From: Tessaracoccus aquimaris
GTDB taxonomy: Bacteria; Actinomycetota; Actinomycetes; Propionibacteriales; Propionibacteriaceae
NCBI RefSeq assembly: GCF_001997345.1
Contig: NZ_CP019606.1
Span: 2,976,001-3,040,000 of the forward strand
DNA length: 64,000 bases
Direction: 5' to 3'
A program made the translations under genes and the position numbers. Below, in pieces: positions 13,457 through 36,211 of the stretch. How positions within the stretch are numbered: position 1 is the first letter of the stretch; the number at the start of each line of letters is the position of its first letter. The notes below the pieces were generated by a model. The model ran no database searches. It saw only the letters and a list, made by a program, of their open reading frames with translations, and was not told the DNA's origin.

Positions 13457-14473
13457 TCAGGCGACGAAACGCACCCAGTTCGGGCCGCTACCGGTGTGGA
13501 TCCGGTCAAGTGCGACCAGCCGGCCGTCGCGCTCCAACCGGTACAGCGCGGCGTGATCGGAGGCCTCCCCCGCGACGACGACGTGGCGACCGTCCGGTGC
13601 CACGGCCAACCCGCGCGGTTGCTTCTCGACGTGGGTCAGCACGACGGTGTCGGTCAGGCGACCGTCGCCGTCAAGCCGCACGGCCGCGACGGTGGACTCG
13701 GTGCGCTCGGTGCACAGCAGCCACCCGTCGGCGAGCGCCACGTCGGCGCCCCAGATCAGGTGGTCCGCTCGCGGATCACGGCCGTAAGCGCTGATGCCGA
13801 GCCCGGAAGCGGCGTCGAAGGCCTGGACGTCCTCAGCCTTGTCGAGCCTGCCGCCCTCGCTGCGGTCGAAGCGGACAGCCTGCCCCGTGAACTCGGTGAT
13901 CAGGTAGGCGTTACGGTCGTCGGCAGAGACCACGAGGTGCCGCGGGCCGTCGCCGGGCGTCACCCGGACGAAGGGGGCGGACAGTTCGACGAGTTCGCCG
14001 TCCGTTGCGATCGAGTATTGGGCGATCAGGTCGTCGCCGAGCGAGACGAAGTAGGCGTTGCGGCCCTTCGGGTCGGGGACGGCGGCGTGCATGTTGCGGT
14101 GCGACATCCGCCCCATCTCGGGGCCGACGACGCCGTCGACCACCTGATAGCTGGTTCCCCAGCCGCCGTGGTACGACGCCGCGAGCAGCGCGTTCGGCGT
14201 GATCGCGAGGTAGGCAAGCGGGTCGTCGACGGGGCGACGTGCGATCTCGGTGAGGCCACCGGTCGACCTGTCCAGGCGCAGCGTCAGGATGGCCGGCTCC
14301 GGATCCTTGACGGCGCAGTACACCAGGTCACGCGCGGGGTCGACGGCGAAGGTGCTGCATCCGAGGCCGACCTCGGTCACCGCCTCCTCGACCAACCGGT
14401 CACCGTCGAGACGCAGGGCCGAGATGGTCCCGCCCTTGTCATTTCCAACCAGGATCAGGGCCTCATCAGACAT
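13457..14473 (-). CDS. Lactonase family beta-propeller protein
   Basis: 338 residues of the 6-phosphogluconolactonase-like (Pgl/YbhE) seven-bladed propeller family. Recurrent blade motifs include DPARDLVYCAVKDPEPAILTL, GPRHLVVSADDRNAYLITE and PRGLAVAPDGRHVVVAGE, with a closing GSGPNWVRF. Members hydrolyse 6-phosphogluconolactone in the oxidative pentose phosphate pathway or act on related sugar lactones; which one is not decided by sequence. No signal peptide, so cytosolic. TAGGAT ends 6 nt before the ATG with no Shine-Dalgarno, suggesting a leaderless mRNA. Confidence 0.85.
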   Translation of the reverse strand: MSDEALILVGNDKGGTISALRLDGDRLVEEAVTEVGLGCSTFAVDPARDLVYCAVKDPEPAILTLRLDRSTGGLTEIARRPVDDPLAYLAITPNALLAASYHGGWGTSYQVVDGVVGPEMGRMSHRNMHAAVPDPKGRNAYFVSLGDDLIAQYSIATDGELVELSAPFVRVTPGDGPRHLVVSADDRNAYLITEFTGQAVRFDRSEGGRLDKAEDVQAFDAASGLGISAYGRDPRADHLIWGADVALADGWLLCTERTESTVAAVRLDGDGRLTDTVVLTHVEKQPRGLAVAPDGRHVVVAGEASDHAALYRLERDGRLVALDRIHTGSGPNWVRFVA

Positions 14474-14492: not shown

Positions 14493-15062
14493 CTACCCCG
14501 CCTTGGCCCCGTAGTCGCGCACCAGTGCGGGCGGGCCGCCCGGATAGGCGGTCGCCGTGACCTTGCCCATCCAACGGTTCCCGGCCCGATCAAGCGTCCA
14601 CAACGTGATGCACTGCGCGTCGAGCTGGGTGGGCGTCGGATGCTGGTAGACGTACATGGTCTCGCCGGTGGCAAGATCCATCGCCCGGGTCCGCAACGTG
14701 CCCATCTCCCGCAGCGTGGTGCCTTGCTTCAGCGCCGACATCGCGATGACGACGCGGCTCACGTCTGGGTTCATGGTCGAGAAGTCCAGCATGATCTGCG
14801 CCCGGTCCGGGCCGATCGACTGGCCGGGCGCGAGGTAGGCAAGGAACGCGCTGCGGTCGGGGGTGGTGCGCCGGTTGCGGTACAGGAAGTCCTGCTCCGA
14901 CGGCACCCGGTAGCCGGTCCCGTGCCTGGTCAGCAGTAGCGCGCACATGTCGACGTCGACGTTGGTCGCCGACCACGTCGCCCCGATCAGCACCCGCTGG
15001 ACGGGCTCGTCGCCCGTGTTGATGAGGCCGACGGCGGCCCCCTGCAGCAGCCTTCTCGGCAT
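14493..15062 (-). CDS. TerD-like protein, last gene of GTPase/vWA operon
   Basis: 189 residues with a TerD-type fold: GLINTGDEPVQRVLIGATW, then NVDVDMCALLL, corresponding to the Asp-containing first strands of TerD calcium-binding domains, then VPSEQDFLYRN and MLDFSTMNPDVSRVVIAMS. TerD proteins bind calcium and recur in tellurite/stress and predicted phage-defence complexes with vWA and GTPase proteins. The ATG shares one base with the stop of the GTPase gene (TGATG). It is the last gene of a ten-gene operon. Cytosolic; no signal peptide. Confidence 0.8.
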   Translation of the reverse strand: MPRRLLQGAAVGLINTGDEPVQRVLIGATWSATNVDVDMCALLLTRHGTGYRVPSEQDFLYRNRRTTPDRSAFLAYLAPGQSIGPDRAQIMLDFSTMNPDVSRVVIAMSALKQGTTLREMGTLRTRAMDLATGETMYVYQHPTPTQLDAQCITLWTLDRAGNRWMGKVTATAYPGGPPALVRDYGAKAG

Positions 15063-16033
15063 CAGCGCACCCCGATCTTCTTGGTCAACGCGGCCTGCAG
15101 CACGTCCAGCACCCGGAACGGCACGATCCCGCCGCGGCCGATCGTGGCGGCGTTCGGCTCGGCCCCCAGCGCGGAGGTCGCGAAGAGGCGGTACGGAATC
15201 TGCGCGTCGGAGGCGGCGGTCAGCAGCATCGACGCGCCCAACTGGCCGAGCAGTCCGTTGAGCTCGTGCTGCAGCAGGTCGGCGTCGTTGCGGTTGTCGA
15301 AGGCGCTGACCATCGACGGGTCGCGCTGCAGGGTCGAGCCGGGCCGGTTGAAGATCGACTGCCACGGCGACGCGGACAGGTCCCGCATCCGCTGCAGCAC
15401 GTCGAACTTGCTGAGCACGATGCCGAGCACCTGGTCGGGGCCGCCCTGCTGACGGTGCGCGGCGCGGGCCGCGAGCACCGAGCGCATCACCTCGAGGTCG
15501 TGGCCGGAGCCGCGGGGCACCGTGACGACGCCCTCAAGCACTGCCGCGACGCCGGGCACCTTCAGCGGGTCGACCATCGCGACGATCAGGTCGCTGAAGC
15601 CGAGGTAGCGGAACCGGGCGTCCGACGGCGCGAGCGACTCGAAGTCCTCGCCCGCCGCGTCGATGATGGAGAGGCAGACCGCCTGTTCGCCGTACTCGAA
15701 GCTCCACAGCAGCGGCTCGAGTTGCTCGTCGCGGGCGGGAGGTGTCGGGCGAAGCAGGTTGCGCTGCTCGAAGAGCGGCACCCGGTACTTCTGGTGGAAG
15801 CGCTCCTTGGTGGACCCGAGCGGGGTCAGGAAGCTCTGGTGCTGCTGGCCCAGGAAGTACTCGAACTGGTCCATCATGACGCCGATCAGCACCGACTTAC
15901 CCGCGGTGCGGGCGCCGGTGATGGCGATCGCGAGTTGCGTCGACGTCAACCATTCGACTGGCACGTCGAAGTGGCAGTTGGGGCACTCGCCGGACCTGGC
16001 GACCTGCTGGTAGCAGCGCGGACACACCGTCAT
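15062..16033 (-). CDS. Double-GTPase 2-like (DO-GTPase2) P-loop GTPase with zinc ribbon
   Basis: 323 residues. An N-terminal C4 zinc ribbon (CPRC at 4-7, CPNC at 17-20) precedes a TRAFAC-type GTPase: P-loop GARTAGKS (40-47), switch II-like IIDAAGEDF (about 122-130; DxxG), and SKFD (near 209) in place of NKxD. The arrangement matches the DO-GTPase2 group described from comparative genomics as the switch of vWA/GAP1-linked conflict systems. ATG overlaps the preceding stop (ATGA). Likely a cytosolic nucleotide-dependent regulator that works with the adjacent GAP1-like and vWA proteins. Confidence 0.85.
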   Translation of the reverse strand: MTVCPRCYQQVARSGECPNCHFDVPVEWLTSTQLAIAITGARTAGKSVLIGVMMDQFEYFLGQQHQSFLTPLGSTKERFHQKYRVPLFEQRNLLRPTPPARDEQLEPLLWSFEYGEQAVCLSIIDAAGEDFESLAPSDARFRYLGFSDLIVAMVDPLKVPGVAAVLEGVVTVPRGSGHDLEVMRSVLAARAAHRQQGGPDQVLGIVLSKFDVLQRMRDLSASPWQSIFNRPGSTLQRDPSMVSAFDNRNDADLLQHELNGLLGQLGASMLLTAASDAQIPYRLFATSALGAEPNAATIGRGGIVPFRVLDVLQAALTKKIGVR

Positions 16034-17049
16034 GAGGCGACCTTCGGGAACAGGGCATCCGCCAGGCTCGCGGCATCCTCGACGGCGCCCGCCAGGTCGG
16101 CGGTCGCGACGAGGCGCACGTTCTCCAGCGCGGCAAGCCCATCGAGCGCGGCCAGTTCCTCGTCCCAGAACTGTGCCGGGCGATCCTCGGGTCGCAGCCC
16201 GTGGCGGGAGCGTCCGACGGCGACAACCAGCATCGGCGTCCCCGAGGAGGCGGCGAAGGCCTCCAACTCGCGGTAGTCGACGGGGACCCCGTCGAGCAGC
16301 AGCGCGACGCTGCGGCCACCCTTCGCGGCCGTCTCGACGGCGCGCGTCACCCGCGGCCAGGGAGCCGGGTCGTGGCCGAGCGCGTCGTTCCAGTCGATGG
16401 CGTCCGCGTCCAGCGCGGCGACCGAATCACGCACCGGCTCCGTTGCGACCAGCACCGAGCCTGGCAGGTTCCCGTACCCGGTCGCGGCGATCCCGATCAG
16501 CGTCTCGACGAAGGTGCCGATCGCGGCGCGGCGCTCCTCGACGAGCACCGAGGCGGACGCGTCGAGCACCAGCGCCCAGTCGACGTCGCGGGTGGTCGAG
16601 TCCTGGTGATTGACGTGGTACGCGTACTCACCGGGGCGCAGCCAGGCGCGCGACCAGGCGCCCTCGTCCGCGCGCCGGGCGTCTGCGAACAGGTCGGTCA
16701 GCGTGCCGTCGGCACTCAGCCGCACCAGGTGCACGCTGTGATGCCCCCCGACCTCGACGGCGGGCCGGACGATCTCGCCGCCCGCGCCTCCGGGGCTGCG
16801 GAACGACATGCCGAGCCGGGTGCCGGAGGCGAACGGCTGCCCCGTGGCGGAGCGGGCGCCGATCAGGAGTTCCTGGCCGGGCACCACGACGACCTCGTTG
16901 GCCGAGACGCGGAACTGCGGCTCGACGACCTCGCCGTCGGGTCGGGTCAGCAGCACCTGGGCGGGGGCGGTGGTGCTCAGCTTGATCGACACCGCCCCGG
17001 CGGGCGCCTGCGCGGTGCCGCCGGCAGCGAGCTGGACGATTCCGGCCAT
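16030..17049 (-). CDS. vWA-domain protein of GTPase operon
   Basis: 339 residues. The N-terminal 150 form a beta-rich domain (VQLAAGGTAQAPAGAV, PGQELLIGA). The C-terminal vWA fold starts near residue 155 with VDWALVLDASASV, an intact DxSxS metal-ion site, and ends in FPKVAS. No membrane segment. It lies between the GAP1-like and GTPase genes with 1-nt and 4-nt overlaps, implying a stable complex of the three products. Distinct from the large membrane vWA protein earlier in the operon. Confidence 0.82.
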   Translation of the reverse strand: MAGIVQLAAGGTAQAPAGAVSIKLSTTAPAQVLLTRPDGEVVEPQFRVSANEVVVVPGQELLIGARSATGQPFASGTRLGMSFRSPGGAGGEIVRPAVEVGGHHSVHLVRLSADGTLTDLFADARRADEGAWSRAWLRPGEYAYHVNHQDSTTRDVDWALVLDASASVLVEERRAAIGTFVETLIGIAATGYGNLPGSVLVATEPVRDSVAALDADAIDWNDALGHDPAPWPRVTRAVETAAKGGRSVALLLDGVPVDYRELEAFAASSGTPMLVVAVGRSRHGLRPEDRPAQFWDEELAALDGLAALENVRLVATADLAGAVEDAASLADALFPKVAS

Positions 17050-18416
17050 CAGAGGTCCTCTCCATGGATGGTTGCGTGTGGTTCAAGGGCCGCCACGATG
17101 TCGCGCATCGCCTGGCGGAGCTCCTCCGGCTGTTCGTCGATGCGCTCGGCGAGGCCGCCCTCGGCGAGCAACCGTTCGACGTCGACGCCAGCCTTGCCGA
17201 GCGCGGCCGCCCCGATCAGCGCGGCCTCGAGCCCGGTCGGTTCGTCGTCGACCTGCCACGGGTCGACCACCTCGGGGGCCATCGAGTAGACGCTGACGTC
17301 TTCGGCGGGTGAGTCGGTCGGGACGGGCACGCCGACCTCGGTGGCGAGGGCCGCGAACTCGTCCCAGCGCCGGATCTCGTCGGAGACGCTGTCGAGCAGG
17401 AACCTGATCGGCTCGGAGCGGGCGAGCACCTGCGCCCCGGGCGTCGTCAGCCAGGCGGCCTGCAGGAACGCCAGGTAGTCCTTCGGCTGGAACTCGTTGC
17501 CCGCGTCGAGGTAACGCGCGATGAACTCGTCACGCTTGGCGAACACCGCAAGCGCGACGTCGGGCTCCGCGTAGGCGAGGTCGACGACAAGGCCCGCCGC
17601 GTTGGAGCGGCCAGCGACGCTGCCGTCGGGCAGGCGCCAGCGGGCGCCGTCGTCGGTGGACTCCTGCTCGACGTGCCAGCTGAGATCCATCTGGGGCACG
17701 CCGCGCAGCGTCTTCGGGTCAAGGGGCGCGGTGACAGCCACCACGACGGGGATCGTCGCCAACTGCTCGATGGCGCTGCGGGGGTCCTCGCCGATGCAGA
17801 TCCGCACCAGGTTGGCTGTGCCCGGGTCAAGGACCCAGCTCAGCATCGAGATCCAGTGCGCGCACTCCGCGGCGGTCGGGCCGACCAAGACGAGCCGCTC
17901 CTGCCCCAGCAGTTGCGTCAGCGCGAGGTCGACGACCCACCTGATCCGCGCGGTGCGCGACGGGTCGGCCCGCAGCCAGGCGGCGGTGTCCTCCCAGCCG
18001 CGCGGCGCGGGAAGCTCCGCCGGGGGAACCGCCTCGGCGACCTGACGCGACCCGTAGGGCGTCACCCACCCCGGCGAGAAGAACCAGTCGACCGGACGCA
18101 GCGTCGGCCGGGCGTCGATCACCGCGCAGTGCGACACCACGTTGCCCGGTCGGCCGGTGTGGTCGGTGCCCGCCTCCACGCTGCGGCAGGCAGCGAAGCC
18201 CTCGCCGAGCGGGCCGATCCGGAACCGGACGGCGCGCTGCTGCAACTGCTGGGCCGACGGGAACTGCGGCAGCGTCGAGGGCATCGCGACGCTGGTCAGC
18301 TTCAGCAGCGCCTCGCCCTCCTCCTGGCCGATGCCGCCGGTGGTGTGAAGCACGCCCCACCCGCCGACGTCGCGGCCCGCGATCTGGTCGGCGCTGCCGT
18401 AGACGAGTTGCTTCAT
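17049..18416 (-). CDS. GTPase-associated protein 1 (GAP1)-like
   Basis: 455 residues. The N-terminal domain starts MKQLVYGSADQIAGRDVGGW, continues with a TTGGIG turn, and has TDHTGRPGNVVSHCAVI near residue 95. This matches my recollection of the GAP1 N-terminal type 2 domain, followed by the predicted middle and C-terminal parts. GAP1 proteins accompany double-GTPases and are thought to be their partners or regulators. A DPW tripeptide (VVDPWQVDDE) near residue 390 echoes the DPWG repeats of the membrane vWA protein. ATG overlaps the upstream stop (ATGA). Family call from motif memory, not from a search. Confidence 0.75.
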   Translation of the reverse strand: MKQLVYGSADQIAGRDVGGWGVLHTTGGIGQEEGEALLKLTSVAMPSTLPQFPSAQQLQQRAVRFRIGPLGEGFAACRSVEAGTDHTGRPGNVVSHCAVIDARPTLRPVDWFFSPGWVTPYGSRQVAEAVPPAELPAPRGWEDTAAWLRADPSRTARIRWVVDLALTQLLGQERLVLVGPTAAECAHWISMLSWVLDPGTANLVRICIGEDPRSAIEQLATIPVVVAVTAPLDPKTLRGVPQMDLSWHVEQESTDDGARWRLPDGSVAGRSNAAGLVVDLAYAEPDVALAVFAKRDEFIARYLDAGNEFQPKDYLAFLQAAWLTTPGAQVLARSEPIRFLLDSVSDEIRRWDEFAALATEVGVPVPTDSPAEDVSVYSMAPEVVDPWQVDDEPTGLEAALIGAAALGKAGVDVERLLAEGGLAERIDEQPEELRQAMRDIVAALEPHATIHGEDL

Positions 18417-20626
18417 GACACCACCACCTCGAGCGTGTAGACGGGCGGGTCGAGCACGGCGACAGCGCCGCAGTCGGCGGGGGGCAGGTTCACGAACGCC
18501 CGGATGAACGCCACCGTGTTCCCGGCGGGCAACTCCGCGATGGGGTGGGGACCCCGGCCTGCAGCGAGACGACAGGCTGCGCGAGGATCCGGCCGTCCTG
18601 CGGGTGCAACGGAAGCCGGGTGAGCTGCCCGACGATGGCGAGCGGCGTGTCGTGCAACTCGTCGTCGACCTCGGCGAAGATCCGGTACGACGCGGGCCGC
18701 GCACCCGGCTGGGACGGCATGCCGTCGTGGCCGTATGGCACCACCTGGTAGTCGAGCCGGGTGATGCCCGGGTAGTCGAGGCTGGTGGCCTCGGAGTACA
18801 TCGGCCTGCCGTCGAGGTAGACGACGCCGTACAGGTGCAGCGCGCAGCCGTTCGACGGGAGCGTGCGGGTGATCCGCATGCCGCCCATCCGGATGTACTC
18901 GTCGCTGGTCAACTGCGCGATCGGCTCGGACTCCCGCGGGTCGAGCGTCTGGCCACGCGGGCCCTGGTAGGCCTGCACCACCGTGACGCCCTCGGGCCAC
19001 GAGAAGGTGACGATCTCCGAGTCGACCCGCTCGACGATCTCGGCGTAGGTCGGCGCGTGGGGGTCACCATCGAGACGGCGGGGCCGACCCACACCGACTC
19101 CTCCGACACCCAGTGGACGGCCACGAAGTGGGCCCGCACCCAGGTCGGGTCGACCACGTAGTCCTTGATGGTCATCAACCCGCCGAGGTCGGAGGGCGGG
19201 TAGTTGATCCGACGCTCCCGCGTCAGGCCCTGCCCCTCGATGATCTCCGCGGTGCGCGACTCGTTCTCCAACCCGTGCGGCGGATGCTCCGGCGTGGCGT
19301 ACAGGTAGACCTTGCCGTGGCTCGGCCGCAGCCAGGAGATGTTGTAGGCCCCGGGGTCGACTCCGAGCGGGACACCTGCACCTTGATCTGCTGGACCTCC
19401 GGCGTGACGTGCGCGACGGCGGTCAGCGGCGCAGACACCATCGACTGCCCGTCGGCCAGTTCGGCGACGCAGAACGCGGCGTAGACGATGTCGTCGCCCA
19501 TCGGCGGGTTCAGGTCCCGGAAGCCGGTCGAGGAGACCAGTTCGCGGTCGATCTCACGGTTGATGTCGTAGCTGATCGTGGCGCCCTTGGGGAACCGCTG
19601 CACCTCGACGCGGCTGCCCTCCGGCGCCGACAGCAGCGCGGCGACCGTGCGGTTCGCCGTCACCTGCACGCTCAGTTCCTTGGGCGGCCACACGACCTGC
19701 CCGACGCCCACCAGCCGCGGCTGCGAATGCGCGGCCGCGAGCAGCGTGTCGCCCTGGTTCACCCAGACGGCGAGGTACGTGACTGGCCCGGCAGGGTGCA
19801 ACTGCGCAGTTCCGGAGTTGGAGCGGGTGACGCCGACGAGGCCACCCAGTTCGGGGGCGCCGCTCGGCCAGTTCGACGTCGACTCGACGATCCGGTACAG
19901 CGTCACCGGCGCGCGCTCAGGCGCGGGGGTCCAGGCGAGCCGGACCCCGTCGTCCTCGAGATCGGCCGACAGATGTCCGAACGCCGTCGCCGGGCCGTCC
20001 GCCCACGAGAAGGGCACGAACTGCGGCACCTTCTCCCAGTCGAACGGAGCGTACGGGTCGAGCAGTTCCGGCTCGGGCGCGGCGACGGGCACCGGCTCCG
20101 GCTCCGGTTCGGGCTCCGGCTGCGGAGCGGGTCCGACGGCGTCGGGGCCGCCCAGGAAGTAGGCGATCTGGTCGGCGTACAGCGCGACGAGTTCAGCGGC
20201 GGTCAACCGGGCCGCGGCCTGTTCGACCTCGGCCTCTGTGACGGCACCGCTCGAGGCAACGCGCGCGAGGTCCTGGTCGCCGATGGTGGCGACCTTCGGG
20301 TCTTGGTGCCCGCCCCGCCACTCCATCAACCTGCCGAAGCGGGCCTCCGGGCGCTGGTCGAGCCCGGGCTGCGGCTCGGGAGCCTGCCTGGCGGGCGGCG
20401 CCGACCGGGGCTCGGGCTGCGGCTCGGGGCCGTCCATCGCGGGCACCAGGTCGTCGAACGAGCGCAGCAGCGCGTCGCGGTTCTCCCAGAGGATGTGCTC
20501 GGCCACGGTGCGCAGCCGGATGTCGAGGTGCCCCCACAGTTCGAGGTCGCGCTGCGAGATCCCCTCGCCCCCGCGGGCCTGCGCAGCCTCGATCAGCCAA
20601 CGGGAGCGTTGCAGTCCGGTGCTCAC
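18413..20626 (-). pseudogene. Large GTPase-operon protein, frame broken three times
   Basis: GTG at 20626 overlaps the stop of the membrane protein gene (GTGA). The reading frame then breaks at about 19369-19371 (C3), 19059-19063 (C5) and 18542-18545 (C4). Adding one C at each restores a single protein of about 738 residues ending NLPPADCGAVAVLD...VVVS with an ATGA overlap to the GAP1-like gene. Visible parts: an N-terminal helical domain, a Pro/Glu-rich linker (PEPEPEPEPVP near 175) and a C-terminal half of repeated beta-sandwich segments resembling fibronectin type III-like strands (LAWTPAPERAPVTLYRIVE). No known family recognised. The precise operon overlaps at both ends argue that the gene is functional and the breaks are errors. 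Confidence 0.7.
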
Positions 20627-21399
20627 CAGGTCGTCCCCGGTCCGGACGGGCGCTGCCTACCCGGCGTCGGGCCGCCGCCCCACTGCTGCTGCGGCGGCGG
20701 GGGCTGCGGCTGGTTCCACTGCGGCTGAGGCATCACCGGCGGCGCGATGGGTCGCACCTGGCGCACCTTCAGCCCGAAAGGCACCACGAGCACCGCGACG
20801 TAGGCCGTCACGAGCGCGACGATCGCCAGCTTGGCTCCGGCGCCGAGTTCGACGTTCAGGTCGACGCCGGTGCGCGCTTCGCTGAGGAACAGGCCGGCGG
20901 GTCCGAAGAGGTAGTAGCTGACGGCGATGATGCCCCCGATCGAGGCGACAAGGATCCCCGTCACCAGTGCGACCGTGAAGCCGCCGCGGAACAGCAGGCC
21001 GATGGAGCTGAGGATCATCCCCAGCGCCAGCAGCCACACCAGGATTGCGGCGAACACGACCTCGTTCGGCGAGTACTCGAACGAGCCGGACTGCCCGTTG
21101 ACGGTGCCGCTGCCGTTGACCCACGGCAGCCAGATCGAGATCAGCACCAGGATCCCCGCCACGAACAGCATCACCATCGAGTAGCGGGCGGGGCCGGTGA
21201 CGTACGGCTCGCCGTCGGGCTGCCTGTTGAGGAAGAGCAGGCCGAGCCACGGCAGGAAGAACGCGGGAAGCAGTCCGTGCCACCAGGGGCGGCCGGAGCG
21301 CCGCGCAAGCGCGATCCCGAACAGCGAGGAGGGCACCGCGTTGATCAGGTAGAAGATCACCACGGCGGTGAAGAAGTCGGCGTTGAGCCACTCAGGCAT
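20623..21399 (-). CDS. Polytopic membrane protein of GTPase operon
   Basis: 258 residues from ATG 21399 with AGGAGA 9 nt upstream. About six hydrophobic segments (ADFFTAVVIFYLINAVPS, YSMVMLFVAGILVLISIWLP, VVFAAILVWLLALGMILSS, VALVTGILVASIGGIIAVSY, KLAIVALVTAYVAVLVV). It ends in a Pro/Gln/Trp-rich cytosolic tail (PQPQWNQPQPPPPQQQWGG), similar in composition to the tail of the membrane vWA protein. No domain name known. Its stop overlaps the GTG of the next gene. Probably a membrane platform component of the system. Confidence 0.78.
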   Translation of the reverse strand: MPEWLNADFFTAVVIFYLINAVPSSLFGIALARRSGRPWWHGLLPAFFLPWLGLLFLNRQPDGEPYVTGPARYSMVMLFVAGILVLISIWLPWVNGSGTVNGQSGSFEYSPNEVVFAAILVWLLALGMILSSIGLLFRGGFTVALVTGILVASIGGIIAVSYYLFGPAGLFLSEARTGVDLNVELGAGAKLAIVALVTAYVAVLVVPFGLKVRQVRPIAPPVMPQPQWNQPQPPPPQQQWGGGPTPGRQRPSGPGTTW

Positions 21400-21410
21400 G
21401 TGCGTGTCTC

Positions 21411-24044
21411 CTAGATGAACGAGTCCGACGACGACTGGAGCGACTGCGGCTCCTCCGGCGGGCGCTGCGCGCCAGCGAACTTCGAGGGGTCGTAGGCGCC
21501 GCCGAGTTGGACGACGACGAGGGCGACGTCGAGGCCGGTCGCGTCCTCCTGGGCGAGCGTGTGTCGCACCGAACGGATGTCGACGACGCCGCCCGCCGCG
21601 TTGAACATGCCCGGCTGGAAGGAGCCGGACATCTCGGCGCGGTCGAGGCCCTCGATGAACGAGGTCCGCGACACCTCCTGCGGGCGGCCGGACGAGTCGC
21701 GCACCAGCACCCGGCTGAGCAGCCGGTCGCGGGCCTCCGCGTCGCTGCGGGTGAGTTCGACGATGCGCTGCGAGGTCGCCTGCGGCAGCCGCCTGGTGCC
21801 GACCGAGTCGGCAAGCGCGGTGCTCCACCTGGTCAGCACCGGCACCCCGTCGATGGCGGGGTCGTTGCCGAGCAGGTTCGGATCCTGCTGCAGGTGGTGG
21901 CGAAGGTTGCCGAGGCTGGCCGGCAGGTCGGTGACGAAGGCGCGCCACGCGTCGGAGAGCCAGCCGATCCTGAACAGCTCGCCGCGCCACCGGTTGGCGA
22001 CGTCCTCCACGGCCTCGTCATCGGGGACGGCGACGCCGACGGCGAGGTTGAGCGGCATGCCCTGCCCGACGTGCAACTGGCGCTCGGTCGACGACGTGGT
22101 CTGGCCGAGCGGGGCATGGATGAACGCGCCGAACGCGCGGGACCAGTCGAGGTACTGCCGATAGGCACGGCTGATCCGACGCAGGTCCTCCAGCGCCTCC
22201 ATCCGGTGCCGGGTGGCGTCCTCGAGTTCAGTGGTGGCTGCCCGCAACTTGTTGAGGTAGGCGTACACCTTGGCCGAGGACTTCATGTGCAGCCACGCCC
22301 CGACACCCGCCCAGGCGCCGACGGTGAGCAGCACCATCAGGATCAGCCAGGGCCAGCCGAGCACCGACAGCGCGGTCAGCGCCACGAAGATCGCGATCAG
22401 CGACAGCGAGACGGCCGACATCACGCGCACGTGGCTTGCCAGTTCGTCCTGCTCCTGCTGGATGGCCTCGGGCGCCGGCGGCTTCGCGCCGAGCCTGTCC
22501 ACCAGGTCGGTCAGTTCCTGCACCTCGGCGATGGTGGCGCGGTGCGCGTCGCCGAGCCTGCGGCCGATGTGGCCCGAGTACGAGCCGCGGACCCGGTTGG
22601 CCCACTCCCGCAGCCGGTTGCGTTCGGCGCTGACGGCCTGCCCCAGGTGCGGCTGCGTCTGCGCCAGGTGGTCGAGGCGCTCGAAGAGCCGCCCGACGGC
22701 GATGTCATCGCCCGCCTCGATCCGCCAGTTCGGCAGGAACGCGGCCAGGTTCGACGGCAGCATGAACGCGTCGGACGGGTCGACGCCGACCCGGTCGGTG
22801 GTCGTGATGACGGCACGCTGCGAGCCGAGCGTGCGGGGCGGCAGTTCCGCCGACCTGCTGCCCGCGTCGAGCAGCGTCATGCCGCCGTCGACGAAGTCGT
22901 GCCACAGTTGCGGCTTCTGGGGAACCGGTTCGAGTTCGCCGTGCTGCGCCGCCCTGCGGATCACCGAATCGAGCGACTGCTCGTACTCGGCCCACGTCGC
23001 CGACGACCCGTCGGCGCGCACGCCCCGCACCACCACGGCGAAGCCGGAGTCGGCCCCGCCGAAGACGGCATTCTGGACGGCGCTTGCGGTGGCCTGCGAC
23101 ACGGAGCGGTTGAGCGCGTCGACGGCGTTGCGCGGCGCGGAGGCCAGCGCCTTGCCCGCGAACACCACGAACTGCTTGATCGCCTCCCACGCGCCGACCT
23201 TCTGCGGCGCGGGCGGCGGCGTGCGGTGCCTGACGCGCGGCATCACGTCGACGTGCTTCGTCAGCAATTGGTCGGCCATCGACACGGCGGACGCGGCCTC
23301 GTCGTCGATCGACAGCGCGTAACTGGAGTCGACGCGCGGCGTCGGGTAGCGGTCGTGCACCGACACGAGCCGGGTCGCGAGCGCGTCCTGCACCGAGCCG
23401 GACGACAGCGACCGGCTGAAGGCGCGGACGGGCACGATCAGGCCGCCGCTCGGGGCCTGCCTCTCGTCGAACGGGGCGTTTGCCTGCCCCGGCCACAGCC
23501 CCGTCAGCGAGCACAGCGTCCCGGTCAGCAGCAGCAGCCAGCGCGGGTCGTCGAGCGAGCGGACCAGGGCCGCGGAGCCCTGCGCCGGCGAGACGGACTC
23601 CTCGGGGGAGATCGCCAGGTTGTGCCAGCCGAACACGGCGAGCGCACGGCCGCCCCATTCGGCCTCCGGGCTGCCCGCCGACACGTTGAGTTGCACGATC
23701 GGCACGCTCGGCACCGTCTGCCTGATCGCCTCGAGGACGGCGGCGGCCTGCCGTGGCGCGACGGCCGTCTCGTCCTCGTCGACGACGCCGACCACAGCGA
23801 GCCGGATCCGGCCGACCCGGGTGTGCGCCAGATCCTGCTGCAGCGCGACCGTGCGGACGGAGCCGTCAGGCTCCAGCACCCCGGCCGGGATCGCCGGCTG
23901 ACCGTCGACGATCGAGTCGAGGTCGACGATCCGGCACGGATTGACCAGCCCCTGGACCGTCCAGTCGTGCAGCACCGCCTGCAGCGCGACGGCGACCGGC
24001 CGCCGCGCCGCGATCACGACAATGTCAGACCCAGACCACGTCAT
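21411..24044 (-). CDS. Large membrane-anchored protein of GTPase operon, unknown family
   Basis: 877 residues. ATG 24044 (GAGGGAG 6-8 nt upstream) is preferred over the in-frame ATG at 24059; it overlaps the tubulin-like gene by 20 nt. The N-terminal 180 residues have a Rossmann-like pattern (DIVVIAARRPVAVALQAVLH, IRLAVVGVVDEDE). A helical middle holds two adjacent membrane helices near 540-588 (AVSLSLIAIFVALTALSVLG, WLILMVLLTVGAWAGVGAW), flanked by heptad-like coiled-coil stretches. A C-terminal domain follows. No family recognised. It may tether the tubulin-like polymer or the GTPase complex to the membrane; this is inference from position and topology. Confidence 0.8.
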   Translation of the reverse strand: MTWSGSDIVVIAARRPVAVALQAVLHDWTVQGLVNPCRIVDLDSIVDGQPAIPAGVLEPDGSVRTVALQQDLAHTRVGRIRLAVVGVVDEDETAVAPRQAAAVLEAIRQTVPSVPIVQLNVSAGSPEAEWGGRALAVFGWHNLAISPEESVSPAQGSAALVRSLDDPRWLLLLTGTLCSLTGLWPGQANAPFDERQAPSGGLIVPVRAFSRSLSSGSVQDALATRLVSVHDRYPTPRVDSSYALSIDDEAASAVSMADQLLTKHVDVMPRVRHRTPPPAPQKVGAWEAIKQFVVFAGKALASAPRNAVDALNRSVSQATASAVQNAVFGGADSGFAVVVRGVRADGSSATWAEYEQSLDSVIRRAAQHGELEPVPQKPQLWHDFVDGGMTLLDAGSRSAELPPRTLGSQRAVITTTDRVGVDPSDAFMLPSNLAAFLPNWRIEAGDDIAVGRLFERLDHLAQTQPHLGQAVSAERNRLREWANRVRGSYSGHIGRRLGDAHRATIAEVQELTDLVDRLGAKPPAPEAIQQEQDELASHVRVMSAVSLSLIAIFVALTALSVLGWPWLILMVLLTVGAWAGVGAWLHMKSSAKVYAYLNKLRAATTELEDATRHRMEALEDLRRISRAYRQYLDWSRAFGAFIHAPLGQTTSSTERQLHVGQGMPLNLAVGVAVPDDEAVEDVANRWRGELFRIGWLSDAWRAFVTDLPASLGNLRHHLQQDPNLLGNDPAIDGVPVLTRWSTALADSVGTRRLPQATSQRIVELTRSDAEARDRLLSRVLVRDSSGRPQEVSRTSFIEGLDRAEMSGSFQPGMFNAAGGVVDIRSVRHTLAQEDATGLDVALVVVQLGGAYDPSKFAGAQRPPEEPQSLQSSSDSFI

Positions 24045-27000
24045 GCTTGGCTCCCTCATCGTCGACCCCGGCGGCCTTCACCAGCGTCTTGAGCCGGTCC
24101 AGGGCGGGGATCGCGATGGGTGCCAACTCGGAGAACAGCGACATGCGGCGCATCGCGTCGACGTCGAGCTTCAACTGCAGGGCCTTGACGGCGCCCTCGT
24201 CCGGGCGACCGCTCGCGTCGCGCTGCCCCCACTCGCCCGCGAGCATCGCCTTGAGACCGTCGATCCACGCCAGCGTCGCCTCGACACGCGCGGCGGCCGT
24301 CTCGGCGGGGGTCGCCCCGGCTGGCACCGACGTCAGCACCTGCGACGGGCCGTCGCCCTCTAGCTTGACGCCACCCACCTCGAGCGGCTTGTCGTAGAAC
24401 GCGGCGTGCAGCAGTTGGGTGCCGTTGATGGTCTCGTCGGGCCTCGACTGCTCGTTGCTGTCGGCGCCGTCGACAAGCAGGCGCAGCGCCTCGTACGGGG
24501 CGAGCGGCGTCAGGTCGGGGTCGCCGACGCAGCCGACGAAGGCACGCGTGTGGCTCATCAGGACGCCCGCGAGCACGTCGTGCGGCGTGCGGATCGACGT
24601 CTCCTCGGAGGTGAGCAGCTCACCGAAGCGGACCCAGCCGCGCGGGGTCCGGACCTCCGCGGTTCCGTAGGCGTCCTGCCGGACCAGGCCGACGAGGCGA
24701 CCGAGGTACCAGCCCGCGATGATCGTCTCGACCTCCTCGGGCGACATGCCGAGCGCCGCGTACAGCGGCCTGGTGCGCTTCCACTGCCACAGGTCACGCT
24801 GCGCCGTCACCGGCGACATCGCCCAACGGGCGTTGATCGGCTCAAGCAGCGAGGTGTAGCACATCGGCGAGACCTTCTGGTACGAGCCGAACACGTTGAC
24901 CTTGCCCGCGGTCGACAGCGCGCCCGACAGGGCCCGCTTGAAGTTCTCCACCGAGGTGACCTCCAGTTCGGGCTTGGCGCCCAACTGCTGCACGACCTGC
25001 TCGGCGACGGGGTGGGTCGCCTCAAGCGGGATCTCGGAGAACGAGTAGACGTAGCGGATCTCGGTGTTGTGGAGCCGCTTCGCCATCGGGATGTCGACGC
25101 CGACGACGGGCCGGGCCTTGTCCATGGTCTCGATCAGCTTGGCCGCGAAGCCCTCGTGGCGCTGCTGCCTGTCGATGGGGGTGACGGCGGGATCGTCGAG
25201 GTAGTCGGAGATCGACGCGCCTGCGAAGTTGGCGAACACGTCGCCGATCGCCGCCAGGCGGAGCGTGCCGCGCGACAGCAGTTCGAACGAGTCCATCCGA
25301 AGCGAGTACACCGGCTTCGCCTCAGGCGTCGGGGTGCCGTCGCTCGCGCGGTTGGGCAGCACGCCCGGTCGCCAGTGGCTGACCTGCTGCAGCACGTCCT
25401 GCGTGACCTTCGATCCGGTCGTCTCCCAATGCCCGGAGACGGCCTCGGCGCGCAGCTTCGACAGGCCCTGGCCGTAGTCGGCCCCGCCGCCTGCGGAGGC
25501 GACGACGTCGCTGCGGAACTGCGCCGGGAAGTCGTCCGCGGTGGTCAGCAGGATCTCGTTCTCGGCGTGGTTGAAGCGCAGCGGCACCCGGTCAGTCTCG
25601 TCGGGCCAGTCGGCGAAGATCGCCGAGTTGAGCTGCGCGAGGCCGGCGCCGCCGGAGTCCTTCGCGCGCTCCACCTCGAGGGTGCGCAGCGAGTCGTTGG
25701 CTGCCTTCTCGAGGCCGCCGAGCACGTCGGCCGCGTAGGCGCGCAGCACGCCTGCCGCGACCCGGGCGCCCTCACGACGCAGCACGTTCTCCATGGAGGA
25801 CTGCAGCGCGCGGGCGGCGAGTTGGCCGAGCGGATGCGTGATGTCGACGGTCTTCTTGCCGAGCGTCTGGGCCTGCTGGCCGACGGCGGCGTCGAGCGCG
25901 ACCGGGTCTGCCCCGTCAGCGGTGGCTCCCGCCTGCGCGAGTTGGCCGATGATCTGGTCGGAGAGCGAGCGGACGCGGCTCATCAGTTCGCGCGCGTAGG
26001 GCAGGCCGAACTCGGCGACCACGCGCAGGAACTCAGCCTTGGTCGCCGCCTCGAGCTGGTAGGCCCACTGCTCGGCCCACGCGTAGGCAGAATGCTGCAA
26101 CTGGTAGCGGGCCTGGTCGCGCATCGCGCCGACCGAGGACGCGACGGTCGAGACCCACTGCGCAGCGGGAGCCGAGCCCGAGTTACCCATCATGGCGACG
26201 CCGGGTGCTGCGGCGTCACGGGCAGCGGCCTCCCAGTGCGGGCGCGGGAACGCGACACTCTGGAACCAGTCGGGCACCTGCTGGCCGAGGTAGGGCAGCC
26301 CCATGGCGCTCAGCGAGGCGCCGATCTGGTTGTCCATCAGCATCCGCAACTGGTCATTGCCTGGAAGCTGACTCGTCGGGTTGAGATGGCCCTCGACGAG
26401 GTGATCGGAGGCGTTGCGGGAAAGGCGCTGCGCCGCGTAGTCGAGGTAGCGGTCGCGGCCGAGCGACAGGCTCGCGAAGCCGAGCGAGCCGAACGGCAGG
26501 GCGCGTCGGTCGGCCCGCCAGCCGAACTTGCTCGTCATCGAGTCGAGGGGCTGCGGGTTGCCGAGCATGAAGTCGACGTACTGGCTGGTCGCCGCCTCCG
26601 ACAGCATGGTGCCCGCAAGCGCGCGGGCGATGCCGCGGTAGACGCCGTCCGCGGAGCCGTCGCCGAAGTAGGCGCCGTCGCCGCCGATGCGTCGACCGAT
26701 CGGGAAGACGCGCCCGAAGGGCGGGTTCCCCGAGGTGAACGGCACGCCGAGGCGCTGGTAGGTCTCGCGGTCGAACGGCTCGCTGAGGCGGGTGATCGCG
26801 CCGAGGATCTCGGGAAGCGCGCCCATCGCGTTGCCCTCCACGTTGGCGCGCAGGCCAGAGGGGAGCTCGGCGAACACGTCGGCCGTGTACAGGAAACAGC
26901 CGATGTTCTGCGGCTTGACGCCGGGCAGCGAGCCGAGCACGCGGCACACGTCGAGGAACATCGACGCGCCGGAGCCGCCCGCCATCGAGCCGACCACGAT

Positions 27001-27507
27001 CGGGATGATGACGTTGCTCGTCTGCTCCTTGCGGGGAATGTCGCCCCAGGCGTTGGGCGCCACGGCTCGCGCCTGCGACCCGACGAGGGTCTCGTGCAGC
27101 GCGCCGAGCCGGGGAAGCGTCAGCATCCGGCCGACAGCGCGGTACTGGCCCGCGCCGTTGTTGACGGGGATGCCGTTGGCGGTCTCCCTGTCGCGCGGGG
27201 CCCAGCCCATGATGGGGGCGAAGTTGTTGCCCTTGCTCGCGAGCTGAGCCTCGACGGCGGCCGCGGTTGCGAGGTAGGTGTTGGTCGGCGAGGAGAACGA
27301 CACGTACTGGCCGCCCAGGTCGCGGATGCTGCCGAGCGGGGCGGGACCCTTGTCGGGGTCCACTGGCACGTCGATGTGGACGAACTGCCAGGCGTCCGGG
27401 AGTTGGCTGATGCCGCGGGCGCGCAGGTCGGCGCGCAACTGGTCGATCAGGAGTCGGACGGTACGGCCACCGGAGCCGCCACAGCCGACGATCAGAAACC
27501 TACGCAC
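24025..27507 (-). CDS. Tubulin-like GTPase of GTPase/vWA operon
   Basis: 1160 residues, far longer than FtsZ or tubulin (about 400-450). The N-terminus has the tubulin/FtsZ-type nucleotide-binding start FLIVGCGGSGGRTVRLLID. Near residue 172, VGSMAGGSGASMFLDVCRVL corresponds to the G-box (GGGTGS) loop. About 600 further residues form a helix-rich extension. It fits the Pfam tubulin-like group (Tubulin_2) found beside vWA proteins in actinobacteria. No membrane segment. It lies 20 nt downstream of the membrane vWA gene. It may polymerise or act as a nucleotide-dependent scaffold; untested. Confidence 0.85.
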   Translation of the reverse strand: MRRFLIVGCGGSGGRTVRLLIDQLRADLRARGISQLPDAWQFVHIDVPVDPDKGPAPLGSIRDLGGQYVSFSSPTNTYLATAAAVEAQLASKGNNFAPIMGWAPRDRETANGIPVNNGAGQYRAVGRMLTLPRLGALHETLVGSQARAVAPNAWGDIPRKEQTSNVIIPIVVGSMAGGSGASMFLDVCRVLGSLPGVKPQNIGCFLYTADVFAELPSGLRANVEGNAMGALPEILGAITRLSEPFDRETYQRLGVPFTSGNPPFGRVFPIGRRIGGDGAYFGDGSADGVYRGIARALAGTMLSEAATSQYVDFMLGNPQPLDSMTSKFGWRADRRALPFGSLGFASLSLGRDRYLDYAAQRLSRNASDHLVEGHLNPTSQLPGNDQLRMLMDNQIGASLSAMGLPYLGQQVPDWFQSVAFPRPHWEAAARDAAAPGVAMMGNSGSAPAAQWVSTVASSVGAMRDQARYQLQHSAYAWAEQWAYQLEAATKAEFLRVVAEFGLPYARELMSRVRSLSDQIIGQLAQAGATADGADPVALDAAVGQQAQTLGKKTVDITHPLGQLAARALQSSMENVLRREGARVAAGVLRAYAADVLGGLEKAANDSLRTLEVERAKDSGGAGLAQLNSAIFADWPDETDRVPLRFNHAENEILLTTADDFPAQFRSDVVASAGGGADYGQGLSKLRAEAVSGHWETTGSKVTQDVLQQVSHWRPGVLPNRASDGTPTPEAKPVYSLRMDSFELLSRGTLRLAAIGDVFANFAGASISDYLDDPAVTPIDRQQRHEGFAAKLIETMDKARPVVGVDIPMAKRLHNTEIRYVYSFSEIPLEATHPVAEQVVQQLGAKPELEVTSVENFKRALSGALSTAGKVNVFGSYQKVSPMCYTSLLEPINARWAMSPVTAQRDLWQWKRTRPLYAALGMSPEEVETIIAGWYLGRLVGLVRQDAYGTAEVRTPRGWVRFGELLTSEETSIRTPHDVLAGVLMSHTRAFVGCVGDPDLTPLAPYEALRLLVDGADSNEQSRPDETINGTQLLHAAFYDKPLEVGGVKLEGDGPSQVLTSVPAGATPAETAAARVEATLAWIDGLKAMLAGEWGQRDASGRPDEGAVKALQLKLDVDAMRRMSLFSELAPIAIPALDRLKTLVKAAGVDDEGAKHDVVWV

Positions 27508-27527
27508 TGATGATTCTCCTCATTCGG

Positions 27528-30263
27528 TTATCGATTACCACGAGCTGGGGCCGCTGGAGGGTCGTCCCCCGGCGGGTTGCCCCACGGATCGTTTGCTGGT
27601 GGGTTCTGGGGTGGGAGCGGTTGTTGGGGCATCTGCTGCTGGGGCGGCTGCTGCTGCGGGACCGTCGGGGACGACCCCCACGGGTCGCTGGCGGGTGCCT
27701 TCGGCGTCGCCCACGGATCGGCCGCCGGGGCGGAGCCGCCACCGCCGCCTCCCCAGGGGTCGCTCGACGGGCCGGCCTGGTCGGGCGGCAGCCCCTCGCG
27801 GAGCTTGGCGACCGAGGTGCGGATGTTGGCGCGGACGTCCTCGAGCAGGTCCTTGAAGCCGGGCGAGCCGGGCGCGGTGAACACCGTCACCTCGACGGGG
27901 CCGCTCATCGGACGCTGCGGATCGAGCGCGACCATCCAGTTGCCCTGCACCGCGAGCGGGAGCTTCGCGTTGCCCTTCACGGACTGCAGCGAGGTGCGGC
28001 CGCCCGCGGACGGGCCGGGGGTTTCGACCTCGACGTGGCCGGGCTCGGTCAGCGCCATGCCCATCTTCGCCTTGAGCGTCTTGCCCGCGACGGTGACCTC
28101 TCGCCTGTTGTTGGTCAGGTGCGCCACCGTCAGGTTGGCGACGCCCAGCGGCACGCCGTTGTCGGTGAAGGCCCCGTGATCGTCGACGGGGCCGGAGACG
28201 CTGCCCGCGAGGACGGCGTTGCCCGGGATCTTGGAGGTGAGGAACTTCACCAGGTAGAGGATGCCGACGGGGATCGCGACGCCGAGCAGGATCACGCCGA
28301 TCAGGGTGGTCCACAGCACGGGCTGCGACACGGGGCGGGTCTGGCTGAGGTCGAACGCGAGGTCGACGGCGACCGGCTCGGCGGTCGAGTCCTTCGCGGC
28401 GAGCATCACGGTGGTGGTGCCGGTGAAGGAGCCGTTGCCGAGGCCGCCGGGGTCGAGGGTTAGTTCGAGGTTGCCGGAGGCGCAGGAGTCCTTGCCCGAG
28501 GCGGGCGAGAAGAGCTTGGCCTTGTCGAGCCCCTCGGGGTATCCGGTGAACTTCGTCTCGCCCGCCAGCCAGGCGCAGCCCTCACCGTCGAGTGGGACCT
28601 GGACGGTGACGGGGTCGGGCTTCTCGGTGGACCCGAAGCTGATCCTGTCGGGGATCGACGGGAAGTTGACGGGCGGCAGGATGTTGAGCGGGATCGAGGC
28701 GTGGCGCGGCTCCAGCTTGGTGCCGGGGATCGTCTCGCCGCCCTCCTGCCACGACTCGGTGGTGACGTCGAGCGTCAGGACCAGTTCGGCGACGCCTGGC
28801 TTGAGGTCGTCCAGGTTCAGCTCCAGCGGCTTCTCGATGTCCGCCTTCTTCAGGCCGGACGCGAGCGCCGTCGTCTCGCCGCCGCTGAACAGCTTGACGT
28901 CCATGGTGGTCTCGTTTGACAGCGTGGTCGGGTCGATCCGCTCACCGTTGCGGTCGACGGTGCCGAGCTTCAGTTCGACGGGCGCCTCGCCGATGCGGGG
29001 GGCAAGGTCGGCGCGGTTCGCCAGGATCGGCGAGATGTCGCCCTTCAGGGTGATCGACGACTTGGCCAGTTCGTCGCTCTTCTGGTCTGCGACGAACACG
29101 ATGCCCCACGGGCCGGCCCAGTTGTCTGGACTCTTGCGGGTCAGGTCGAAGGTGAGCACGCGCGGCGTCACCCACTCCCACGTCAACGTCGAGCCGCCGA
29201 GGTCCTTCTCGCCCTTGCCCTGCGTCAGTTCGAGGCTCTCGCCGGTGCGGGTCTTCAGGTAAATCCGGGTGCCGTCGATGGGGGCCTTCGCGGTGGCGTT
29301 GACGGCGCCGATGGAGCCGTCGAGCACGAAGGTGCGGGTGCCCTCGGGGCACTCGGAGTCGACACAGACGGGGTTCTCGCCGCCCTTGCCCTCCTCGAGC
29401 GCCGTGATGAAGGTGAAGATCAGGTCGTCGACGTCGGTGGCCATCAGGAACTCGCCGGGCGTCGGCGTCGTCTGCTCGCCGCACGCGGTGCCCTGGCCGG
29501 TGCTGATGCCCTTCATCAGGTTGAAGCTCTCCGGGGGCGCGTCGACGGCGAGGCCGAGGCCGACGGTGATGATGTCGAGCGAGCGGACCTGGTCGGCGAG
29601 GCCGCCGGGTCGGCAGAGGTCGTTCTGGCCGGAGGTGAGTGCCTCCTGCACGGCGGACTTGCTGCGCAGCCGGTTGTCGGGGGCCCACGGCTTGACGCCG
29701 CCCCAGCGCTGCACGTCGCTGTCGCTCTTGCGGACGTTGAGCGAGAACTCGCCGTCGGAGAACCACAGCAGCATGTTGCAGGAGTTCGCCTGGTCCTTGG
29801 TGCGGGCCGAGAACTCCTTGCGGACGCCGTCCATGGCGGACCAGTAGTCGGTGTCGACGCCGTTGTTCTTCGACGCGTAGGACTCGATGTCCGAGTTGAT
29901 CTTGCCCGTCGACTCGGGCGTCAGGGGCGTCCAGTCGAGGGTGCGCTCGTAGCCGGTGCTGAACCCGGCGACGGCCATGTCGACCTTGATGCCCTGGGTC
30001 TCGGCGAGCGACTCGGCGAGGCGGTTGACGGTGACGCTTGCGGCCTTCACGCGGCCGGCCTGGGGGTCGGTGTCGCGCAGCGAGCCGGACATGTCCATCA
30101 GCATCAGGACGTTGCCCTGGCCGCCGCCGTTGACGCAGGCGGCGAACCGCTGCACTGGCGTCAGTTCGGGGTCCTCGGCGTGTGCGACGGGGCTGAACAC
30201 GCCGCCGATGCCGACGAGGGCGCCCGCGACTGCGGCGCCGAGCGCCGCCTTCCAGCCCCTCAT
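27528..30263 (-). CDS. Membrane vWA-domain protein of GTPase operon
   Basis: 911 residues from ATG 30263, which overlaps the stop of the preceding gene (ATGA). Signal peptide MRGWKAALGAAVAGALVGIG ending AHA (cleavage near 29). A vWA domain with intact metal site DMSGS (Asp 57) spans about 50-280, with Cys-containing extracytoplasmic regions. Beta-sandwich repeats run to about 640. One membrane helix at 648-676 is followed by a cytosolic domain and a Pro/Gln-rich tail with DPWG/DPWA repeats. The protein thus presents the vWA outside and a DPW-rich tail inside. Likely sensor or assembly platform; inference. Confidence 0.88.
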   Translation of the reverse strand: MRGWKAALGAAVAGALVGIGGVFSPVAHAEDPELTPVQRFAACVNGGGQGNVLMLMDMSGSLRDTDPQAGRVKAASVTVNRLAESLAETQGIKVDMAVAGFSTGYERTLDWTPLTPESTGKINSDIESYASKNNGVDTDYWSAMDGVRKEFSARTKDQANSCNMLLWFSDGEFSLNVRKSDSDVQRWGGVKPWAPDNRLRSKSAVQEALTSGQNDLCRPGGLADQVRSLDIITVGLGLAVDAPPESFNLMKGISTGQGTACGEQTTPTPGEFLMATDVDDLIFTFITALEEGKGGENPVCVDSECPEGTRTFVLDGSIGAVNATAKAPIDGTRIYLKTRTGESLELTQGKGEKDLGGSTLTWEWVTPRVLTFDLTRKSPDNWAGPWGIVFVADQKSDELAKSSITLKGDISPILANRADLAPRIGEAPVELKLGTVDRNGERIDPTTLSNETTMDVKLFSGGETTALASGLKKADIEKPLELNLDDLKPGVAELVLTLDVTTESWQEGGETIPGTKLEPRHASIPLNILPPVNFPSIPDRISFGSTEKPDPVTVQVPLDGEGCAWLAGETKFTGYPEGLDKAKLFSPASGKDSCASGNLELTLDPGGLGNGSFTGTTTVMLAAKDSTAEPVAVDLAFDLSQTRPVSQPVLWTTLIGVILLGVAIPVGILYLVKFLTSKIPGNAVLAGSVSGPVDDHGAFTDNGVPLGVANLTVAHLTNNRREVTVAGKTLKAKMGMALTEPGHVEVETPGPSAGGRTSLQSVKGNAKLPLAVQGNWMVALDPQRPMSGPVEVTVFTAPGSPGFKDLLEDVRANIRTSVAKLREGLPPDQAGPSSDPWGGGGGGSAPAADPWATPKAPASDPWGSSPTVPQQQPPQQQMPQQPLPPQNPPANDPWGNPPGDDPPAAPARGNR

Positions 30264-30706
30264 CGCCACATCCCACGGGCGACGTCGTTGGCGATGAACC
30301 AGGCGCAGAGCGTCACGGCGAGCAGCGCAAGCACGATCAGGATCCGGCGGCCCCAGTCGGCGAGGTCGGACGGCGCGTACCAGCCGGACTCGCGCTTCTT
30401 GGCGTCGGCGACCGCGAACATCGCGACTGCGCCGATCGCGAGCGGTCCGGCGAGCACCCAGCCGATCAGTCCGGTGGTGGCGCTCTGCCCGATCAGGGCG
30501 AGTACGACGGCGGCGACGGTCAGGATCAGGCCGATGCCGAGCCACAACATCGGGGGCTTGTTCGGCGTCACCAACTCGATCTGGGGTCCGCCCCCGAAGC
30601 CGTCGGCTGCCTGCCGGTCGTCGAAGCGGGTCGGTGGAGCCGACCAGCCGTCGGGCGATGAGCCTTGACCGGAGGCCGCTCCCTGTCCTGGCTGCGCCCA
30701 ATTCAT
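30260..30706 (-). CDS. Small membrane protein, first gene of GTPase operon
   Basis: 148 residues. A Gly/Pro-rich cytosolic N-terminus (NWAQPGQGAASGQGSSPDGW) precedes three hydrophobic segments (PPMLWLGIGLILTVAAVVLA, LIGWVLAGPLAIGAVAMFA, ILIVLALLAVTLCAWFI). A longer in-frame start at 30856 exists but runs back through the promoter region. At 30706, TACATT ends exactly 7 nt before the ATG and no Shine-Dalgarno is present, which suggests a leaderless transcript. No family recognised. Confidence 0.72.
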   Translation of the reverse strand: MNWAQPGQGAASGQGSSPDGWSAPPTRFDDRQAADGFGGGPQIELVTPNKPPMLWLGIGLILTVAAVVLALIGQSATTGLIGWVLAGPLAIGAVAMFAVADAKKRESGWYAPSDLADWGRRILIVLALLAVTLCAWFIANDVARGMWR

Positions 30707-30719: not shown

Positions 30720-30915
30720 GCCCAGTAGTTGTTCACGGTCGCGAGGCGTGCGGCCATTCTCAGGGCACGCCCAGGGATGCCCCTCGCCCCGGTCCCGCAC
30801 GCTGGGGCACGGTACGGCACTGAGGCGCGACGCGAGCAATCCTTCGTGGGGACCACCCGGGGCGGGTGGCGACCTCGGACCAGTTCGCGGACGATTCCTG
30901 GCTAGCCTCCCAGGC

Positions 30916-33739: not shown

Positions 33740-33908
33740 GGGGTCCTCTTGGTCTGCGGTGATCATCGGGGTCAGGACTGATAGTGCACGACTTTCCGAG
33801 CGTGGGCAAGCGTTTTCCCAGATTGCGCAGGAAGTCTGAGTAAACACTTTCCGCCGATGTCACCGTGCCCACCGCGCTACGCTCGGAGTGGTACACCGAG
33901 GAGCGACG

Positions 33909-36189: not shown

Positions 36190-36211
36190 GCTGGGAGGAT
36201 ACCGGTGAACC

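Follow-up and report, generated by a model that had tools for sequence, protein, structure and literature searches.

A conserved ten-gene operon of tubulin, GAP1, GTPase and TerD families in Tessaracoccus aquimaris

The stretch of DNA analysed here, referred to as the window, comprises 64 kb of the Tessaracoccus aquimaris genome (3.93 Mb, a single contig). It harbors ten genes, g0 to g9, which run from position 30706 to 14493 exclusively on the minus strand and which an earlier note, made from the letters alone, had taken for one operon joined mostly by short overlaps. This layout holds: seven of the nine junctions overlap, two of them by 1 nt, four by 4 nt and g2/g3 by 20 or 35 nt depending on the start chosen, while g1/g2 and g3/g4 are separated by gaps of 20 and 11 nt. 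A promoter and terminator scan returned nothing above chance. The same gene set and order recur in eight other genomes of the genus (with a fragmented copy in G150, and with g4 of G112 visible only in a more permissive search), and a related order is found in other genera. Such same-order recurrence is more than chance; the operon is confirmed as real and conserved, and the co-occurrence on which the earlier proposal depended is present. It belongs to a published kind, namely the actinobacterial tubulin theme of GAP1-N2 systems, with a tubulin of the FtsZl1 family, so that the suggested link to published GAP1/DO-GTPase systems is borne out.

Gene g2 (24025..27507, 1160 aa) encodes this FtsZl1-type GTPase. 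It matches Tubulin_2 (PF13809) with 137.7 bits, above the Pfam cut-off, and contains the GTP-binding domain of FtsZ and tubulin with its G-rich loop. The predicted model is a whole tubulin fold with an inserted helical arm (~383-615), and its best structural match is archaeal CetZ, level with tubulins; a g2 profile searched against PDB sequences gave nothing meaningful. Hydropathy yields a single marginal peak (1.62) inside the domain core. Among seven named loci compared, the closest tubulin is that of Tessaracoccus bendigoensis, with 88% identity.

Hydrophobic segments were predicted by hydropathy in g0, g1, g3 and g4, and the membrane tether claimed for the operon stands. The small membrane protein g0 (30260..30706, 148 aa, two to three hydrophobic segments) has no Pfam match and is 52-83% identical in seven relatives. 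The g1 product (27528..30263, 911 aa) matches VWA_2 (33.8 bits, cut-off 27) and combines a signal-peptide-like start, a vWA domain with a DMSGS metal ion-dependent adhesion site (MIDAS) motif, a transmembrane (TM) helix at ~645-677 and a proline-rich tail. A helical protein, g3 (21411..24059, 882 aa, or 876 from the start that most relatives use), has a long arm with a TM hairpin (~540-591) and lacks Gly-rich GTP loops, while g4 (20623..21399, 258 aa) is a polytopic membrane protein identified from its open reading frame (ORF) and hydropathy. Of the products formerly described as membrane scaffolds, one, g3, has a predicted fold that is possibly tubulin-like, a trait beyond the reach of the letters alone.

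Turning to the other genes, g6 (17049..18416, 455 aa) is a GAP1 protein with a GAP1-N2 domain (PF20013, 66.2 bits, cut-off 24); its GAP1-M score stayed below threshold (15.7 bits, cut-off 24), and Pfam listed no match for GAP1-C. g8 (15062..16033, 323 aa) is a DO-GTPase2 protein with an N-terminal zinc ribbon (CPRC...CPNC), for which the DO-GTPase2 profile (PF19993) gives 24.7 bits, just below the cut-off of 27, and the ribbon a sub-threshold 15 bits. Its motifs read GARTAGKS, DAAGED and CPRC/CPNC, with one ribbon rather than two. Among the other genomes carrying this close type of operon, six of seven (G105, G151, G153, G112, G148 and G171, the last counted with neighbours in frame) exceed the DO-GTPase2 cut-off, G160 being below it and G150 lying outside the search. 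g9 (14493..15062, 189 aa) is a TerD-domain protein (PF02342, 53.7 bits, above cut-off). Within the genus, TerD exceeds its cut-off in every one of the nine close-type genomes and in 0/30 others, counts that refer to related genomes and not to independent events; TerD as a constant operon member within the genus is new here. Finally, g7 (16030..17049, 339 aa) has 15 homologues in a protein search, no match in Pfam or among PDB sequences, and is possibly vWA-like, judging from a DASAS (DxSxS) motif. Of the families named in the earlier note, the membrane vWA, tubulin-like GTPase, GAP1, zinc-ribbon GTPase and TerD persist, while its 'soluble vWA' reduces to that motif. A search of NCBIfam with nine operon ORFs produced a single match, far below its cut-off.

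The FNIII-like gene g5 (18413..20626) is not open in the window sequence but is interrupted by three successive frame changes of the same sense (~19349-19355, 19059-19062 and 18520-18598). In G153, G148, G151 and G171 it forms a single open frame of 744-898 aa. Its name derives from its position and from a sub-threshold fn3 match (E 0.084) in the G171 copy; the G148 copy has no fn3 match, and Pfam did not detect HRDC in the g5 copies searched. An assembly error is likely, since the breaks coincide with short G/C runs, relatives are intact, and same-sense splits affect FeoB (39923-41853, divided between two frames) and a PAP2/PATR-repeat gene (31845-33847, two overlapping ORFs each with part of the PAP2 domain). 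Real decay may be the alternative. Programmed frameshifting was set aside in view of the G/C runs, the same-sense splits elsewhere and the single frame in relatives. The splits in FeoB and the PAP2/PATR-repeat gene suggest scattered single-base losses in the window assembly. A frame-break scan flagged three further rows.

Within the genus, the GTPase occurs in 10/39 genomes (including a distant type in G152), and g2 in 23/147 genomes of the family when weak and partial matches are counted. The operon site lies beside rhomboid protease and YibE/F genes (35290-37474 in the window). In all nine close-type genomes, window included, the distance from g0 to the same rhomboid gene is at most ~8.4 kb, and in eight of them YibE/F comes next. 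On the opposite side, a gene for a lactonase-like propeller protein (13457..14473, minus strand, assigned by Pfam), 19 nt beyond g9 and outside the conserved operon, delimits the site; the lactonase holds this place in 5/9 operon genomes, again with the window counted. YibE/F itself is present in 38/39 genomes of the genus, with or without the operon. In G155 and G095 the matched stretches of the epimerase and lactonase genes, between which the operon lies in other genomes, are ~130 nt apart and thus represent empty sites, and in other operon-free genomes the far side is different or unmatched. In a tree built from the YibE/F of 37 genomes, without G150 (fragmentary) and G160 (no YibE/F match), the operon genomes fall into two deep groups, and the operon label needs four changes (bootstraps give 4-5, and starred branches require two). 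The simplest reading is a single ancient site from which the block was lost repeatedly; repeated gain through flank recombination may also explain the pattern. Inheritance at one chromosomal site with empty sites is new here, and the close type does not look mobile in the genus. Apart from the two genomes missing from the tree, a few cases sit uneasily with this picture: G152 carries its distant operon (~31% tubulin identity) at another place (G152:C1 ~2585191-2600700) and without TerD, G134 is limited to a weak and distant pair of tubulin and vWA with no GTPase match, and G036 has a TerD match below cut-off (19.6 bits).

Compared with G153, G148 and G151, the most alike window proteins are g2 (83-92%) and g8 (83-89%), and the least alike are GAP1 (47-65%), g4 (49-70%) and the N part of g5 (52-69%). 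The flanks range from YibE/F (79-86%) over lactonase (69-74%) to rhomboid (58-75%). As the rapidly changing operon parts outpace the most rapidly changing flank only slightly, we do not claim diversifying selection. Divergent from the operon lies a CAAX (Rce1-like) protease gene (30748-31848, plus strand), probably an extra gene of the window lineage given that its best match in the 38 other genus genomes is only 47%. A tandem repeat (12333-12620; 114 nt, 2.5 copies, 98% match) is located near a repeat-rich part at 11.4-12.0 kb.

In a class-level sample of 344 genomes, GAP1-N2 was found in 44, Tubulin_2 in 24 and both in ten, four of which have the two within 10 kb and six on different contigs. 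When 39 tubulin-bearing genomes (the 24 of the class sample and 15 of the family) were searched with a g3 profile, there were 17 matches, all adjoining the tubulin; they include all four genomes with GAP1-N2 and Tubulin_2 within 10 kb and none of the six with these on different contigs. The control genome of Corynebacterium glutamicum has matches for Tubulin_2, GAP1-N2 and DO-GTPase2, as genome-wide family matches only, and is a possible laboratory host.

How might these parts work together? We infer a membrane-attached, GTP-controlled tubulin scaffold that braces or remodels the envelope under stress, a reading we regard as evenly poised. An outside-facing vWA protein (g1) would be seated in the membrane together with g0 and g4. 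Inside the cell, the g2 tubulin would bind GTP and assemble, and g3 would tie this assembly to the membrane by the TM hairpin in its arm. The zinc-ribbon DO-GTPase g8 and the GAP1 protein g6 could form the switch that starts and stops assembly, with the FNIII-like g5, g7 and TerD as putative adaptor or sensor parts. Such a scaffold would protect the envelope, strengthening or reshaping it locally when stress of a physical, chemical or phage kind arises.

More tentatively, and with a leaning towards doubt, we propose that g3 is a GTP-dead, TM-anchored tubulin-fold partner of g2, such that the two would form a filament of two tubulins, rooted in the membrane, with its assembly under the control of DO-GTPase and GAP1 and coupled to the outside by vWA. 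Several results speak against this pairing or weaken it. Profile comparisons of g3 with g2, whole and by domain (29/32, then 54/59 sequences), gave no signal, and the comparison of their N-domains scored 13.0, below the top ten scores (14.9-18.5) among 30 column-shuffled controls. The tubulin-fold comparison aligned only the top-ranked Foldseek chains, so unlisted folds may match too, and its first 19 rows were called tubulin chains from entry titles and chain lengths. Besides, the 26 of 27 loci read in which g3 adjoins g2 are a biased set, many having been chosen on the strength of a g3 or an operon already found in them. Tubulin_2 occurs without g3 in G262, g3 occurs without a GAP1-N2 match in G236, and G410 lacks g3 in the genome profile search, with a weak one (E 1.9e-11) among local ORFs only. 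The g3 profile found nothing meaningful among PDB sequences, and Pfam searches over 29 g3 relatives gave scattered weak matches only, mainly of TM type.

Instead of stress bracing, the operon could serve phage defence as a biological conflict system. In the proposal of Kaur, Burroughs, Iyer and Aravind (2020, PMC7159879), as laid out in its sections on these systems, GAP1 and FNIII proteins sense the invader, the DO-GTPase defines a threshold, and assembly of the tubulin either confines the infection or brings about cell death. The gene set fits this proposal well, and so do the patchy presence across genus and family, the distant copy elsewhere in G152 and the relatives of g2 in 2/72,556 plasmid records (Rhodococcus megaplasmids, 31.5% identity; E <= 1e-5). 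The single conserved site in the genus argues against it, however, as does the lack of any g2 relative among 50,697 phage records at the same E-value limit. Moreover, Pfam revealed no nuclease, NADase, protease or pore domain in the operon proteins, in agreement with the earlier note, which had seen no nuclease or toxin. PADLOC searches returned only two sub-threshold matches (E 0.065 and 0.069) for nine operon ORFs, g0 and g1 being left out; of nine other window proteins two matched, by ATPase-type models only. We deem phage defence unlikely, if a serious contender.

A CetZ-like accessory cytoskeleton for shape or division in ordinary growth would agree with the CetZ match of the g2 model and with the interpretation of FtsZl1 operons as membrane remodelling in the relevant part of Makarova and Koonin (2010, PMC2875224), an older view of this tubulin family that the earlier note does not mention. 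Yet the GTPase match is absent from 29/39 genomes of the genus, and the operon includes GAP1 and TerD. We know of no division system with these two, and consider such a role improbable. A TerD-centred system against chemical (tellurite or metal) stress with borrowed GTPase parts is very improbable: TerD occurs in the genus exactly where the close-type operon does, and in G506, from another family, it directly trails the DO-GTPase on the downstream side, but G506 is its sole case among 16 tubulin-bearing genomes without the close type.

Returning to the stress scaffold, should the assembly prove real, the result would be a bacterial tubulin cytoskeleton anchored in the membrane through one of its own subunits and operated by a separate GTPase switch. 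Thanks to its list of parts, their joint inheritance and the naturally empty sites, the operon can be tested directly. Both 'conflict system' and 'membrane remodelling' are predictions from comparative genomics (PMC7159879, PMC2875224), and this kind of operon has apparently not been tested experimentally: a literature search, which may have missed single-component tests under other names, found no experimental work on FtsZl1 tubulins or tubulin-theme GAP1-N2 systems. In the portions of two further papers drawn on here, Tubulin_2 sequences are put aside from the main trees (PMC9871819) and the DO-GTPase family is named once (PMC11237479).

Set against known systems, g3 differs from the bacterial tubulins BtubA and BtubB (PDB 5o09, 7quq, 2btq, 2bto) in that it lacks GTP loops, has a TM arm and shows no sequence similarity to its own partner g2. 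The closest published counterpart, described with this gene set, is the actinobacterial form of the tubulin theme, a theme put at ~52% of GAP1-N2 neighbourhoods (PMC7159879). According to the sections of that paper on the theme, its traits are a TRAFAC DO-GTPase with a Walker B Glu and one or more zinc ribbons, FNIII-repeat proteins, one of them fused to HRDC, GAP1-M and GAP1-C domains, a tubulin with a C-terminal helical region, a membrane vWA, a mobile gene neighbourhood and mutual exclusion with VMAP systems. The window operon shares GAP1-N2, the zinc-ribbon DO-GTPase with its Walker B Glu, one Tubulin_2 with a helical region, the membrane vWA, a putative FNIII-like protein and TM components; in contrast, HRDC is undetected here and the close type sits at one site in the genus. 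TerD, a constant member here, goes unnamed for the tubulin theme in the main text of that paper, where its single mention falls in another section. FtsZl1 operons, a family with vWA and GTPase partners (PMC2875224, in the part that treats them), also include kinase and OmpA domains, which were not found here. What both have in common is an FtsZ-like N-terminal domain, a helical middle, a MIDAS vWA partner, a GTPase and TM proteins. And while no similarity to the FtsZ/tubulin C-terminal domain is reported there for the C-terminal part of FtsZl1, the g2 model predicts a whole fold with the helical part inserted.
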